From: Vibrio sp. FE10
Lineage (GTDB): Bacteria; Pseudomonadota; Gammaproteobacteria; Enterobacterales; Vibrionaceae
DNA: 64,000 nucleotides
NCBI RefSeq assembly: GCF_030297155.1
Contig: NZ_AP028067.1
Coordinates: forward strand, 2,418,001 to 2,482,000
Direction of reading: 5' to 3'
Position 1 is the first letter of the stretch. Each line of letters opens with the position of its first letter. A program made the position numbers and the translations under genes. Below the pieces are notes generated by a model. It saw only the letters and a program-made list of their open reading frames with translations, was not told where the DNA came from and did not search any database. Positions 3,934 to 60,755 of this stretch are shown here, piece after piece.

Positions 3934-3992
3934 CCCTTAGAGATGAGTCCGCATCCCCTTTTTGATACAATTATTATCAATATGCGATTTAA

Positions 3993-4027
3993 CAGTGGCC
4001 AATGATACTCGTGATCATTGGCCACTG
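3993..4027 (+). terminator. Perfect 14-bp hairpin between yciB and yciA
   Basis: CAGTGGCCAATGAT (3993-4006) and ATCATTGGCCACTG (4014-4027) are exact inverted copies around a 7-base loop. The following bases, ATTGTTTGTG, are only moderately T-rich, so this may be a weak or Rho-assisted terminator, or an operator. Confidence 0.5.
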
Positions 4028-4128
4028 ATTGTTTGTGTTCGGTGAATACGTTAAAAATACGACCACCGCGAGTACCGCAAACACATCTATTTAAATTCAA
4101 AACAATCAATACCATTAAGAGTACAACA

Positions 4129-4527
4129 ATGACTATTCAATCAACTTTGAACCCGATTGGTTCTTTACTTCTTCGCACCTTGGCGATGCCCTCTGATACC
4201 AATGCAGCAGGTCAAATATTCGGTGGTTGGATAATGTCTCAACTGGACCTGGCTGGCGGCATACTGGCGAAAGAGATCTCAAACGGAAAAATAGTCACCG
4301 TGTCAGTATCAAGCATCGAATTCAAACAGCCAGTATCGGTCGGCGATGTAGTCTGTGTTTATGGCGACTGCACCAAGATTGGCCGCAGCTCGATGAATAT
4401 CGACCTAGAGGTATGGGTTAAGCCGGTACTTGATCACGGCATCGGCGATCGTTATAAAGTTTGTGGCGCGACATTCAACTACGTTGCTGTAGACGAAAGC
4501 GGTAAACCTCGCCCAATCAACAAATAG
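4129..4527 (+). CDS. yciA: Acyl-CoA thioester hydrolase YciA
   Basis: A hotdog-fold thioesterase of 132 residues. The signature LRTLAMPSDTNAAGQIFGGW, with the catalytic Asn/Asp region in MPSDTN, marks the YciA/acyl-CoA hydrolase family. These enzymes split acyl-CoA to free acid and CoA in the cytoplasm, with broad chain-length range. An open frame extends upstream to 4018, but that stretch encodes no family sequence. I chose the ATG at 4129, which places the conserved core at the usual distance from the N-terminus. It lies behind the 14-bp hairpin and may have its own promoter. Confidence 0.93.
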   Translation: MTIQSTLNPIGSLLLRTLAMPSDTNAAGQIFGGWIMSQLDLAGGILAKEISNGKIVTVSVSSIEFKQPVSVGDVVCVYGDCTKIGRSSMNIDLEVWVKPVLDHGIGDRYKVCGATFNYVAVDESGKPRPINK

Positions 4528-4552
4528 TCCTTCGACGACCTTATCTCTCTCA

Positions 4553-4592
4553 AAGGTCTTTAGTCATTTCGATTAAAAATGCTAAAGACCTT
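4553..4592 (+). terminator. Hairpin after yciA
   Basis: AAGGTCTTTAG (4553-4563) pairs with CTAAAGACCTT (4582-4592) around an 18-base loop. The long loop and weak T tail make it a moderate terminator candidate. Confidence 0.45.
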
Positions 4593-4720
4593 CTCACTCT
4601 GCCGCACCATTTCACAATTTCTTATCATTAGCTCTTCCAATACCCATTAGTTCGCGTAAATTAGCCAGATAAATAATTTAATCGCTCTAATTCAGTGAAG
4701 TAACATAAGGATATCTCAAC

Positions 4721-5017
4721 ATGTGGTACGTGATTTTTTCTCAAGACGTCGAAAACTCATTAGAAAAACGCCTAAGTGTTCGCCCACAACATCTAGAACG
4801 CCTACAAACACTTCACGATGAAGGTCGACTTCTAACAGCAGGTCCAATGCCCGCTATCGATTCAGATAACCCTGGTGAAGCGGGTTTCACAGGTTCTACT
4901 GTAATTGCTGAGTTCAACTCTTTAGAAGACGCACAAGCATGGGCTGACGCAGACCCGTACATTGATGCTGGTGTCTACCAAAATGTCATCGTAAAACCAT
5001 TCAAGAAAGTATTTTAA
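4721..5017 (+). CDS. yciI: YciI family protein
   Basis: A 98-residue protein of the YciI-like/YCII domain family, a small ferredoxin-like alpha-beta fold. It begins [17 protein letters not shown] and contains the conserved LLTAGPMP segment and the DPYIDAGVY segment near the end. Related domains carry a His-Asp pair and some work in chlorinated-aromatic degradation, but the function of stand-alone YciI is not established. A good ribosome site (AAGGA) precedes the ATG. Its stop is one base before the start of the pilotin gene, so both are translated from one message. Confidence 0.9.
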
Positions 5018-31746: not shown

Positions 31747-31837
31747 TGGTGGAAGGATGGGGATTTGAACCCCAGATACGCTATAAACGTATACTCGCTT
31801 TCCAGGCGAGCGCCTTAAGCCACTCAGCCATCCTTCC
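31747..31837 (-). tRNA. tRNA-Ser, anticodon GGA
   Basis: The minus strand folds as a class II tRNA. The acceptor stem is GGAAGGA/TCCTTCC, the D loop region is TGGCTGAGTGGCTTAAGG, and the anticodon arm is CTCGCCTGGAAAGCGAG with anticodon GGA (serine UCC/UCU). It has a long variable arm (TATACG..CGTAT) and the T arm GGGGTTCAAATCCCC. The CCA end is encoded. The length is 91 bases including CCA. Confidence 0.95.
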
Positions 31838-57339: not shown

Positions 57340-57452
57340 TGACTTATGTTTAATAAGTGAGCTATTTCAATTGGCGATAACTGGCGCAGCGCTCACATTG
57401 CGATTCAATATGACCAGACTCTTACATTAGGATGCTTCACGCATCCTTTTTT
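57340..57452 (+). ncRNA. Possible small RNA between cmoB and the retropepsin gene
   Basis: TTGACT (57340-57345) with CTATTT 17 bases downstream makes a weak promoter pattern, and a compact terminator (AGGATGC 57429-57435, GCATCCT 57441-57447, then TTTTTT) lies about 80 bases further. The terminator is 200 bases past cmoB, which is far for its 3' end. No open frame is seen. This is a tentative call; the hairpin may simply end a long cmoB leader. Confidence 0.25.
57429..57452 (+). terminator. Terminator before the retropepsin operon
   Basis: AGGATGC and GCATCCT form a 7-bp stem around TTCAC, followed by TTTTTTG. Confidence 0.8.
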
Positions 57453-57507: not shown

Positions 57508-58248
57508 ATGTTTAAGCGATTATCGCCAATTGTGGCGGTTGGTTTGCTCTCTGGCTGTACCCTCACCAACGGTGCGGCCTACCACCAAGAAACTCTCGAC
57601 GCTATTGCCCGCTCAGAGACAAACATCGCAAATAAGGTTCAAAACCTTGAACTGCAAGTCAGCAATCAAAGTGATTATATAGAAAGCTTAGAAGACGAAA
57701 TCATCACCCTTTCTAGCCAATTAGATGTTCATCTAACGAGCATGGAACACAAAGTTATTGAACAGCTAGAGGAAGAAGAACCTGTAGCAGTAGCAACCCC
57801 ACCGATCGCTCCTACATCACAACCGACCATCCTTGGTGGAATCGAAAAAGTATCCATTGATTCTATCAACCAAAGCTTTGATGCACGTGTTGATACCGGC
57901 GCAACAACCTCTTCTTTAAATGCTGTAGACATCAAAGAATTCGAGCGTAACGGTAAAGACTGGGTGAAGTTCCACTTAGCAGATAAAGCACAATCACCAG
58001 AAGACCAGAAATGGATTGAAGCACCTGTTGTACGTTTTGTAAAAATCCGCCAATCAACCAATGATCAGACAGAACGTAGAGCTGTGATTGAATTATGGGT
58101 GAAAGTTGGAAAAATCCATGAAAAAGCGCAATTTACATTGGCGGATCGCTCTCAAATGAGTCACCCTGTATTACTAGGGCGCGAATTTATCAAAGACATA
58201 GCGCTAGTAGATGTAAGTAAAAAATACGTACAAACGGAAGTTAAATAA
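57508..58248 (+). CDS. Retropepsin-like (ATP-dependent zinc protease family) lipoprotein
   Basis: A 246-residue protein. The signal peptide ends in LLSGC with the lipidated Cys at residue 17. A coiled coil of about 60 residues follows (ETNIANKVQNLELQVSNQSD and on), then a proline-rich linker, then the domain of the family named ATP-dependent zinc protease/DUF785 (about 108-246), which has the aspartic protease motif ARVDTGATTSSL (catalytic Asp129) and HPVLLGREFI near the end. The fold is that of single-domain retropepsins, so it should act as a dimer; the coiled coil may hold it together. It is the first gene of a three-gene operon with a gap of 17 bases. Substrate unknown. Confidence 0.85.
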   Translation: MFKRLSPIVAVGLLSGCTLTNGAAYHQETLDAIARSETNIANKVQNLELQVSNQSDYIESLEDEIITLSSQLDVHLTSMEHKVIEQLEEEEPVAVATPPIAPTSQPTILGGIEKVSIDSINQSFDARVDTGATTSSLNAVDIKEFERNGKDWVKFHLADKAQSPEDQKWIEAPVVRFVKIRQSTNDQTERRAVIELWVKVGKIHEKAQFTLADRSQMSHPVLLGREFIKDIALVDVSKKYVQTEVK

Positions 58249-58265
58249 CAATAGTAGGGTAAGCT

Positions 58266-59771
58266 ATGACGTCAAGAATTCCATTTTATATCTCAATTTT
58301 CCTGCTCATCGTAGCAGGTATAACACTGAGTATGTTCAGACATACAACCTACGGTGTACCCTGGACTCCAGGCGAAACTAATCAGGTTTGGGACATTGAA
58401 GCTCGTATCGAATTCAATGCAGTGGGCAAAGAAGCAAAAGTTTCACTAGCCGCACCTCACACACAGTCTAACTTTACACTTATCGGCGAGTCAGCTTCAT
58501 CACCAGGCTACGGCATTTCATACTTGGATACAGATTCAGGTCGCCGTGCTGAGTGGTCAATTCGTCACGCAGATGGCCCGCAAACTATCTACTACAAGAC
58601 ACAGTTCTTAGTCGACAGCCAAGCGAACGTTACTTCAACACCTCCAGAAGGTGAAGTGGCTCAACCAAGCTTTGACGGTCCTGAAGAAGCTGCAGCTCTT
58701 GCTTTGATTGACAGAGCAACCAAGCGTTCAGCAGATAACATCACCTTTACTCGTGAGTTAATCAAAACGCTTAACGATCCAGACAGCCAAAACTCAGCGC
58801 TGATTCTGAATAACATGACTAAAGTGGAAGCGACACACAAGCTACTTTCTGCCGCTAAAATCCACAACAAAGTGGTCGGTGTTATTGAGCTGGAAGACGG
58901 ACGTCGTCGCCAATCAATCCAACACATGAACCAAATTTGGGATAATAACCAGTGGGTTCTATTCTCTCCTGAATCTAGCGAGCAACAAGTTCAACCAAAC
59001 TTACTCATCTGGGACGAATCAAATGTCTCTCTATTAGATGTAGTGGGCGGCCAGAACAGTAAAGTTCACTTCTCGATGATTGCTCAGGAAATCTCACCAA
59101 CAGAAGCAACCAGCAGTAAAGTCTCTGCCGATCAACTGTTGAACCTGTCGATCCACAGCCTACCGTTAGAAGAGCAAGCGATGTTTAAAACCATCATGCT
59201 GATTCCAATTGGTGCGCTTATCGTTGTGTTCCTGCGAGTTATCATCGGTCTTAAGACTTCTGGTACGTTCATGCCCGTCCTGATTGCCGTGGCATTCGTT
59301 CAAACGCAGTTGGTGACAGGTATTGTAGGCTTCCTACTGATTGTTGGTACTGGTCTTGTAATTCGAAGTTACTTATCCAAACTCAACCTCTTGCTCGTGG
59401 CCAGGATATCCGCCGTAATTATTACGGTAATTATGATTATCTCGATATTTACTGTAGTCGCATTTAAAATCGGACTTACCGAAGGTCTATCGATTACGTT
59501 CTTCCCAATGATTATCTTGTCTTGGACTATCGAACGTATGTCTATCCTTTGGGAAGAAGAAGGCGCGAAAGAAGTTGTACTACAAGGTGGCGGCTCACTA
59601 TTTACCGCGGTACTTGTTTACTTAGGTATGACTAACCCGTTCATTCAACACTTAACGTTCAACTTTATTGGTTTGCAGCTTGTTATTCTAGCGACCATCT
59701 TGCTACTAGGTAACTACACAGGCTACCGCCTAACCGAGCTTCGTCGCTTTAAACCGCTAGCGGAGGACTAA
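58266..59771 (+). CDS. Inactive transglutaminase domain fused to seven membrane helices
   Basis: A 501-residue membrane protein. One N-terminal helix (about residues 7-25) leads into a periplasmic region with a transglutaminase-like part (about 140-260; ATHKLLSAAKIHNKVVGVIE, IWDNNQWVLFSPES) that lacks the Cys-His-Asp triad, matching the family described as inactive transglutaminase fused to 7TM. The C-terminal part (about 310-490) has seven helices, including GLKTSGTFMPVLIAVAFVQT. The dead domain likely binds a peptide. It follows the retropepsin gene and precedes the ligase gene by 3 bases. Confidence 0.87.
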   Translation: MTSRIPFYISIFLLIVAGITLSMFRHTTYGVPWTPGETNQVWDIEARIEFNAVGKEAKVSLAAPHTQSNFTLIGESASSPGYGISYLDTDSGRRAEWSIRHADGPQTIYYKTQFLVDSQANVTSTPPEGEVAQPSFDGPEEAAALALIDRATKRSADNITFTRELIKTLNDPDSQNSALILNNMTKVEATHKLLSAAKIHNKVVGVIELEDGRRRQSIQHMNQIWDNNQWVLFSPESSEQQVQPNLLIWDESNVSLLDVVGGQNSKVHFSMIAQEISPTEATSSKVSADQLLNLSIHSLPLEEQAMFKTIMLIPIGALIVVFLRVIIGLKTSGTFMPVLIAVAFVQTQLVTGIVGFLLIVGTGLVIRSYLSKLNLLLVARISAVIITVIMIISIFTVVAFKIGLTEGLSITFFPMIILSWTIERMSILWEEEGAKEVVLQGGGSLFTAVLVYLGMTNPFIQHLTFNFIGLQLVILATILLLGNYTGYRLTELRRFKPLAED

Positions 59772-59774
59772 GTT

Positions 59775-60755
59775 ATGTTTGATCAATTTACTTCACCGTT
59801 TAAGTTGAAAGACAAAGGCATAATGGGGATGAACAAGCGTAACCATAGTTATATTGGTCGCTATAATGATCGTTCCAAGTATCCACTCGTTGATGACAAG
59901 CTTAAGACTAAGATTATTGCTGAACAGGCTGGTGCAACCGTACCAAAGTTGATTGGCGTAATTGGTCACCAAGCTGAAGTAAAAACAATCCATAAAATGG
60001 TTAAAGAGTGGCCTGGCTTTGTTATTAAGCCAGCGCAAGGAAGTGGCGGTAAAGGCATCCTTGTCGTGATCTCTCATAAAGATGGGGTTTACACCAAACC
60101 ATCGGGTTCAACCATTAACGAAGAAGACGTAGAGCGTCACATCAGTAATGCTCTAGCCGGTCTTTTCTCACTAGGTGGTAAGAACGATGTAGCTGTAGTT
60201 GAAAACCTCATCAAGTTTGATGAGTGTTTCGAAGGCTTCAGTTACGAAGGCGTGCCAGATGTACGAATCATCGTATTTAAAGGCTACCCTGTGATGGCGA
60301 TGATGCGTCTTTCTACTTCAGCTTCTGACGGCAAGGCAAACTTGCACCAAGGTGCTGTGGGTGTCGGTATTTGCATCGCGACCGGAAAAGCCGTTCGTGC
60401 GGTTCAGTTTGACCAACCAGTAACTCACCACCCAGATACAGGGAAAGAGTTGGCGGCGCTTCAAGTGCCGCATTGGGAAAAACTGCTGACTCTTGCATCA
60501 AGCGCTTGGGAAATGACAGGTCTTGGCTACATGGGTACGGACATGGTTTTAGACCAAGAAGAAGGCCCTATGGTACTGGAGCTTAATGCTCGTCCTGGAT
60601 TAGCAATACAGATTGCAAACGGCGCAGGTTTATTGCCTCGCTTGCATCATATTGAAAATCTAGGCACACCCGCTGAATACCCAAAAGCTGCAGAGCGCGT
60701 TGCCTACGCGGCTAAGCAATTTGGTGTTCACGGTAGCGAGATTGTACCGAGCTAA
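59775..60755 (+). CDS. ATP-grasp alpha-L-glutamate ligase-like protein (RimK-related)
   Basis: A 326-residue cytoplasmic ATP-grasp enzyme of the RimK-related group that accompanies the inactive transglutaminase/7TM protein. The early segment MNKRNHSYIGRYNDRSKYPL is specific to this group. The ATP-binding loop is VIKPAQGSGGKGILVV (about residues 76-91) and the metal-binding Glu/Asn are in MVLELNARPGLAIQIANG. RimK enzymes add glutamate to a carboxyl end; the acceptor here is unknown. It has a good GGAGG site and ends the operon. Confidence 0.88.
   Translation: MFDQFTSPFKLKDKGIMGMNKRNHSYIGRYNDRSKYPLVDDKLKTKIIAEQAGATVPKLIGVIGHQAEVKTIHKMVKEWPGFVIKPAQGSGGKGILVVISHKDGVYTKPSGSTINEEDVERHISNALAGLFSLGGKNDVAVVENLIKFDECFEGFSYEGVPDVRIIVFKGYPVMAMMRLSTSASDGKANLHQGAVGVGICIATGKAVRAVQFDQPVTHHPDTGKELAALQVPHWEKLLTLASSAWEMTGLGYMGTDMVLDQEEGPMVLELNARPGLAIQIANGAGLLPRLHHIENLGTPAEYPKAAERVAYAAKQFGVHGSEIVPS

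Follow-up and report, generated by a model that had tools for sequence, protein, structure and literature searches.

A three-gene locus in a 64,000-nucleotide stretch of the Vibrio sp. FE10 genome (NZ_AP028067.1, positions 2,418,001 to 2,482,000; hereafter the window) is almost certainly an rlo operon (rloA-rloB-rloC) of a Vibrio type. The genes were named in Pseudomonas aeruginosa by Lormand and colleagues in 2025 (PMC12239564). The kind of system is therefore already known, and the window holds a variant of it. The present analysis adds a sub-clade of lipoprotein RloA proteins, a sister family with an intact transglutaminase triad and with gene fusions, and a lead linking the membrane core of RloB to PgsC/CapC. 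As to function, we propose with roughly even confidence that RloC makes poly-alpha-glutamate, RloB exports it and RloA trims it.

A first-pass annotation of the letters alone had described three genes, 17 and 3 bases apart, encoding a coiled-coil lipoprotein with an aspartic protease motif, a membrane protein whose transglutaminase-like domain lacks its triad, and a RimK-related ligase. The open reading frame (ORF) coordinates reproduce the gaps (rloA-rloB and rloB-rloC, respectively) to the base, and each of the three protein descriptions held up in the analyses below; the lipobox and Asp129 were likewise confirmed at the places it gave. Its statement that the families are annotated by domain only is out of date, given the 2025 study that named the system and the Rlo models in NCBIfam. 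Taken as a whole, its interpretation is partly supported.

Results

Conservation of the three-gene order

We searched 274 genomes of the class, taking a PF14402 match above 300 bits to define core RloB, which was present in 47 genomes. RloC lies directly 3' of core RloB on the same strand in 46 of these 47, a count that includes G033, where RloC is a fragment under the cut-off; in the remaining genome, G114, RloB and RloC sit on separate contigs. RloA lies directly 5' in at least 45 of the 47 (39 by match lists, four by reading of the neighbourhood, and G220 and G155 in longer stretches, with G120 left out of the count), and G167 has no adjacent RloA. The families thus do not occur mostly apart, which answers the co-occurrence check proposed in the first-pass annotation, and conservation of the order across the sample rules out a chance arrangement of three genes. 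At a limit of 150 bits, which we chose ourselves, RloC was matched in 52 genomes, each of which has RloB as well. Any RloC-family match at E 0.001 was found in 85 of the 274 genomes, the weaker ones mostly below 50 bits and presumably other ATP-grasp proteins. When 61 relatives were sampled, 35 of 37 same-genus genomes, the window genome included, had an RloB match; the only two without one were G303 and G316, the latter a genome of about 1 million bases.

RloA is a lipoprotein variant of the known protease

The first gene product matches PF05618 over residues 108-244 (E 2.5e-48). Residues D48, K46, R114 and R137 of P. aeruginosa RloA correspond to D129, R127 (Lys to Arg), R191 and R214 of the window protein, and equivalents of D48, R114 and R137 are kept in 39-40 of 40 RloA rows, window included. 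Two disulfide-forming cysteines are reported as conserved in periplasmic RloA (PMC12239564). The window protease domain has no Cys, and the pair occurs in none of the eight members of the lipoprotein clade, against 30 of the 32 other RloA proteins. Since the pair is missing, we file the window protein as a variant and not as RloA1, RloA2 or RloA3; its scores are below all three NCBIfam cut-offs (113.1 bits against 210 for RloA3, 99.1 against 250 for RloA2 and 92.3 against 280 for RloA1). The RloA1, RloA2 and RloB models of NCBIfam are of the narrow 'exception' type.

Lipoprotein-type RloA, defined by a lipobox and at least 100 residues before the catalytic Asp, was found at 8 of 40 loci including the window, with 100-148 residues between lipid Cys and catalytic Asp, and these eight loci form one branch of the RloB tree (support 100/100). 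Two further proteins, L064 and L078, matched the lipobox pattern with 34 and 37 residues before the Asp and were counted as plain signal peptides. L069 was counted as a lipoprotein: its ORF start is over-extended, and its lipobox, missed by the pattern, was read in the printed sequence. None of the clade's lipoboxes has Asp after the Cys. Under the +2 rule of lipoprotein sorting, this favours the outer membrane. The words lipoprotein, lipobox and coiled are absent from the main text of PMC12239564.

Between lipobox and protease the window protein carries a stalk whose best 42-residue heptad score (from residue 27) was equalled by 1 of 300 shuffles, and which also gives weak matches to coiled-coil families in Pfam. 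Seven of the eight stalks were scored. Heptads are strong in four, with as-high scores in 1, 7, 11 and 0 of 300 shuffles for the window, L067, L071 and L074, and unsupported in three, with 107, 100 and 118 for L063, L079 and L094. Because a retropepsin needs two subunits to build its active site, the stalk may take over the role of the disulfide by joining two protease halves.

One lipoprotein-clade RloA, at L071 (G179:C205:19000-25000, positions 3950-4735, minus strand), has DPG in place of DTG and has lost the pocket Arg residues, and is probably a dead protease retained in its operon. The window genome also encodes further exported-looking PF05618 proteins (G000:C1:713208-714665 and G000:C2:1742117-1742518), one with two PF05618 matches (L056/L057) and one an orphan with a lipobox-like start (L054). 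Together with the genome's rimK-rimB pair, they echo the redundant RloA set of P. aeruginosa.

RloC resembles RimK and RloB has a dead transglutaminase domain

RloC matches the ATP-grasp family PF14397 (E 1.8e-100) and TIGR02291 (557.2 bits, cut-off 314.2). Its match to the RimK-like family PF08443 is far weaker (E 1.1e-8), and it scores 46.7 bits against the RimK family model, for which the cut-off is 143.4. Residues common to RloC and the RimK of the same genome are the Asn-Leu-His stretch, Asp162, Arg164, Asp256, Glu269 and Asn271. The last two lie in a Glu-Leu-Asn stretch that we take to be the ATP-grasp metal-site motif, and the window RloC retains the ligase's ATP and metal residues.

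RloB is covered by PF14400 (E 2.7e-56) and PF14402 (E 4.8e-109). In alignment A1 the transglutaminase Cys, His and Asp columns read N, Q and S in the window protein, and across the core RloB rows Cys is present in 0/30, His in 0/30 and Asp in 14/30. With 350.6 bits the window RloB is below the NCBIfam RloB cut-off of 900. Its named best matches are from V. splendidus and V. crassostreae; some public records label Vibrio RloB 'Gonadoliberin III', which is surely a misannotation.

A possible resemblance of the RloB membrane core to PgsC/CapC

In AF2 models, compared by helix order without superposition, the RloB core and CapC begin alike, with a helix, an 8-residue loop containing G-x4-G and a helix opening x-P. 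Both continue with a long helix, a 5-residue loop, a helix, a helical stretch with conserved Pro, Gly, and a helix; the stretch with the conserved Pro is broken in CapC and unbroken in RloB. PDB matches of the two models are at chance level. When conserved letters were compared without gaps, the two best offsets aligned the RloB G-x3-P-x3-A motif with the first and with the second, repeated CapC motif, with five matches each; the next best offset gave three, and reversed CapC at best four. At thresholds 0.85, 0.9 and 0.8, the first offset was equalled in 1, 1 and 6 of 1000 letter shuffles, and both top offsets jointly in 0, 0 and 25. This predicted resemblance is a lead, not homology. Two CapC (PF14102) domains also occur together with a long soluble part in proteins about 1080 residues long at L050 (5094-8330, G077:C34), G062:C68 and G143:C2, the first of them adjoining a CHASE2 protein.

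Sister families and RloB-RloC fusions

In a second RloB type, present in five sampled genomes (L039-L043), a relative of RloB is accompanied by an ATP-grasp protein but has no RloA alongside; G033 carries this type and core RloB together. The transglutaminase triad is intact in L039-L042, and L043 shows His and Asp, its Cys not being found by the pattern used. Domain scans place TPR proteins at L042 and L043, and L042 also has a secreted 411-residue protein with outer-membrane-barrel matches, all sub-threshold. RloB and RloC are fused into one protein in L043 (838 residues) and in L106 (807 residues), the second being found through a search of relatives. The fusions come from different orders, that in L106 (G329) from the window's own, and the printed sequence of L106 has Cys and His, with Gly for Asp. 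No second fusion emerged when 19 genomes from the order of G181 were searched. In a relative, G275, the two matches are in different frames, 62 bases apart. A third RloB type (L044-L046, probably L049) has no adjacent RloC; a PF05618 gene adjoins it divergently in L045 and convergently in L049. The RloB tree (49 rows, L049 left out) supports the core family of 41 rows at 99/99, the second type at 100/98 and the third at 100/100.

Features and neighbours of the locus

Coordinates are collected in Table 1. NCBIfam models identify cmoA and cmoB 5' of the operon. The case for the terminator-like hairpin is its position between cmoB and rloA and not the number of such sites, as four were found in the whole stretch against 3.6 expected from shuffles. 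The sole Rfam match in the window at the gathering threshold is a tRNA (31750-31837, minus strand).

Table 1. Features of the rlo locus and its borders, in window positions
Feature	Position	Strand	Basis
Terminator-like hairpin between cmoB and rloA	57429..57447	+	consensus scan only
rloA-like gene, lipoprotein retropepsin, 246 aa	57508..58248	+	ORF list, Pfam, NCBIfam, residue conservation
Lipobox LSGC, residues 14-17, lipid Cys17, then Thr	57547..57558	+	pattern match
Stalk with coiled-coil-like heptads, about residues 27-95	57586..57792	+	heptad score; outer limit by eye
Retropepsin domain (residues 108-244), pocket Arg127, Arg191, Arg214	57829..58239	+	PF05618, conservation; residue roles from PMC12239564
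Catalytic Asp129 in DTG	57892-57894	+	conservation; role from PMC12239564
rloB-like gene, dead transglutaminase fused to membrane region, 501 aa	58266..59771	+	ORF list, Pfam, NCBIfam, alignment A1, AF2
Periplasmic beta and transglutaminase-like part, residues 39-276	58380..59093	+	
Membrane region, residues 301-482	59166..59711	+	PF14402, AF2
Conserved motif G316-x11-G328-x4-G333-x3-P337-x3-A341	59211..59288	+	alignment; spacing as in CapC alignment A2
rloC-like gene, RimK-like ATP-grasp ligase, 326 aa	59775..60755	+	ORF list, Pfam, NCBIfam, residue conservation
Asn-Leu-His 189-191, common with RimK of the same genome	60339..60347	+	residue comparison
Glu-Leu-Asn 269-271	60579..60587	+	residue comparison
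Convergent gene 3' of the operon, putatively formate-dehydrogenase-like	ends 61057, continues past window edge		judged from sequence

Discussion

Published genetics and biochemistry

The P. aeruginosa operon is PA14_41690-41710-41730 (PA1768-PA1767-PA1766). Its RloA cleaves 8 or 10 consecutive glutamates in vitro, not 6. Cells lacking three RloA-type proteases do not grow without salt, a defect partly rescued by sucrose and not rescued by RloA carrying D48A, R114A or R137A. Deletion of rloB or rloC fully restores salt-free growth of these triple mutants (all PMC12239564). In vitro, RimK and RimB together yield free alpha-poly-glutamate reaching 28-36 units, and chains of this kind are also found in cells (PMC11957791). 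The operon or its relatives were also matched in a suppressor screen of an exopolysaccharide study (PMC7314104), among ceftazidime-selected mutants (PMC10187892), in parallel evolution under antibiotic (PMC10127599) and in a vesicle overproduction screen (PMC12096838). Our search of the available literature found no later work on RloB or RloC, on poly-alpha-glutamate export or on a tie to CapC, which does not prove its absence; PMC12419801 was rejected as a CapC link, CapCone being an unrelated name.

A proposed mechanism and its alternatives

In the mechanism that we propose, cytoplasmic RloC would join L-glutamates by alpha-peptide bonds, by analogy with RimK. RloB would act together with RloC on the cytoplasmic side of the inner membrane and pass the acidic chain through its membrane region into the periplasm, where the dead transglutaminase domain would bind or guide it. 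The lipoprotein RloA, its stalk holding two protease subunits together, would then cut chains of about eight or more glutamates, as P. aeruginosa RloA does in vitro and as the conserved residues predict here. How much fixed negative charge the periplasm carries would depend on the balance between synthesis and cleavage; if cleavage failed, chains would accumulate and low salt would not be tolerated, a prediction that fits the published genetics. Support comes from the RloB-RloC fusions, the conserved order, the residues shared with RimK and the CapC-like core. The layout given in the first-pass annotation, with the ligase inside, the protease outside, the membrane protein between them and a role in envelope stress, agrees with PMC12239564 and with the conserved residues.

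A more specific version is tentative and may well be wrong. RloB-RloC would both synthesise and export poly-alpha-glutamate, as an ATP-grasp equivalent of PgsB-PgsC, with the RloB core as a distant PgsC/CapC-type conduit, the transglutaminase domain as chain guide and tethered RloA as cutter. The wider family would then comprise two machines: rlo, which would keep and trim the polymer in the periplasm, and the sister family, with its intact transglutaminase, TPR proteins, putative outer-membrane protein and a ligase sometimes fused to the conduit, which would send or cross-link the polymer at the surface.

Several observations weigh against the synthesis and export of poly-alpha-glutamate. The literature that we found holds no demonstration of the RloC product or of transport by RloB. 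P. aeruginosa mutants in rloB or rloC alone also show defects, concerning ampicillin and shape (PMC12239564), for which simple polymer overload does not account. Both fusions belong to the sister family without RloA and not to the core family. As for the CapC lead, the motif offset was chosen after inspection, and any offset with five matches arose in 40 of 500 shuffles; PF14102 gave no match to RloB at E up to 10. HHalign of RloB against CapC gave no significant result under any setting, whether or not secondary structure was included: the best Prob was 4.6, on half a domain, against 96.8 for the positive control (tandem versus canonical CapC), and a reversed control beat the true comparison in one run and one further setting. 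The best Pfam family of RloC, moreover, is ATPgrasp_ST and not RimK.

That last point would suit a quite different reading, in which the product of RloC is a small peptide or amino-acid conjugate, sensed or carried by RloB, and poly-glutamate cutting is a side activity of RloA. ATP-grasp ligases do make many small products. The Asn-Leu-His and metal-site residues that RloC has in common with RimK speak against this reading, as do the requirement of RloA for at least eight glutamates in vitro and the failure of its pocket mutants in vivo (PMC12239564), and we consider it the least probable of all. A stronger competitor, though still unlikely, is that RloC adds poly-glutamate to one particular envelope protein or precursor, that the product so tagged is moved, bound or sensed by RloB, and that RloA untags it in the periplasm. 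The precedent is RimK, which tags RpsF in the cytoplasm, where RimB removes the tag, and RloA itself cuts poly-glutamate inside or at the end of proteins (both PMC12239564). Yet no acceptor is known: in that paper the authors' proteome search yielded no RloA substrate, its one candidate being uncut by RloA, a result that also lends no support to a genome-encoded peptide as the object of the pathway. Nor do the operon products keep an acidic C-terminus of the RpsF kind, and this candidate was rejected: the last residue is D or E in 13 of 40 RloA, 10 of 41 RloB and 5 of 41 RloC proteins. Within the window's clade, 5 of 8 RloB proteins end in D or E.

Finally, RloB could be a regulator of cell-wall synthesis that reads the RloC product and is reset by RloA, osmotic death then being a wall defect. 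The mutants' sensitivity to beta-lactams and their defects in shape fit such a role, as does control of the V. cholerae rlo genes by the cell-wall-linked VxrAB system (both PMC12239564). It requires an unknown partner, however, and explains the RloB-RloC fusions and the poly-glutamate pocket less directly, and we regard it as distinctly improbable.

If RloC and RloB do make and export alpha-poly-glutamate, many Gammaproteobacteria, among them nearly all sampled vibrios (35/37), would possess an anionic polymer that has gone unrecognised, along with its own enzymes for making, exporting and trimming it. This would account for the rescue of protease-less cells when the ligase or the membrane protein is lost, and perhaps for the recurrence of the operon in antibiotic, exopolysaccharide and vesicle screens. 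The value of the locus lies in the middle step of the pathway, RloB, whose role the CapC lead, the fusions and the sister family make directly testable.

Comparison with known systems

The window operon is like the P. aeruginosa rlo operon in gene order, domains, the RloA Asp and poly-glutamate pocket, the dead transglutaminase and the RimK-like ligase. It differs in that its RloA is a long-stalked lipoprotein without the disulfide cysteines, and its NCBIfam Rlo scores are far under the cut-offs. With RimK-RimB it shares the pairing of an ATP-grasp glutamate ligase with a PF05618 retropepsin; in that system, however, both proteins are cytoplasmic and there is no RloB, whereas a lipobox is present in the window RloA. 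A rimK-rimB pair (L055, L058) is encoded separately, on contig C2 of the window genome. A 2009 amidoligase survey is said to be the source of some of the Pfam families used here.

TgpA, the membrane-bound periplasmic transglutaminase of P. aeruginosa, differs in its membrane region and from the window's family in that the latter has lost the triad. PgsBCA/CapBCA, like rlo, combines a maker of glutamate polymer with a small membrane subunit of several helices, and RloB and PgsC/CapC share the G-x4-G-x3-P-x3-A motif and the helix order. The bonds made by PgsBCA/CapBCA are gamma, whereas alpha bonds would be expected for rlo, and RloB has neither a PF14102 match nor a significant HHalign alignment. 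PgsB, for its part, is Mur-ligase-like, whereas RloC is an ATP-grasp protein.

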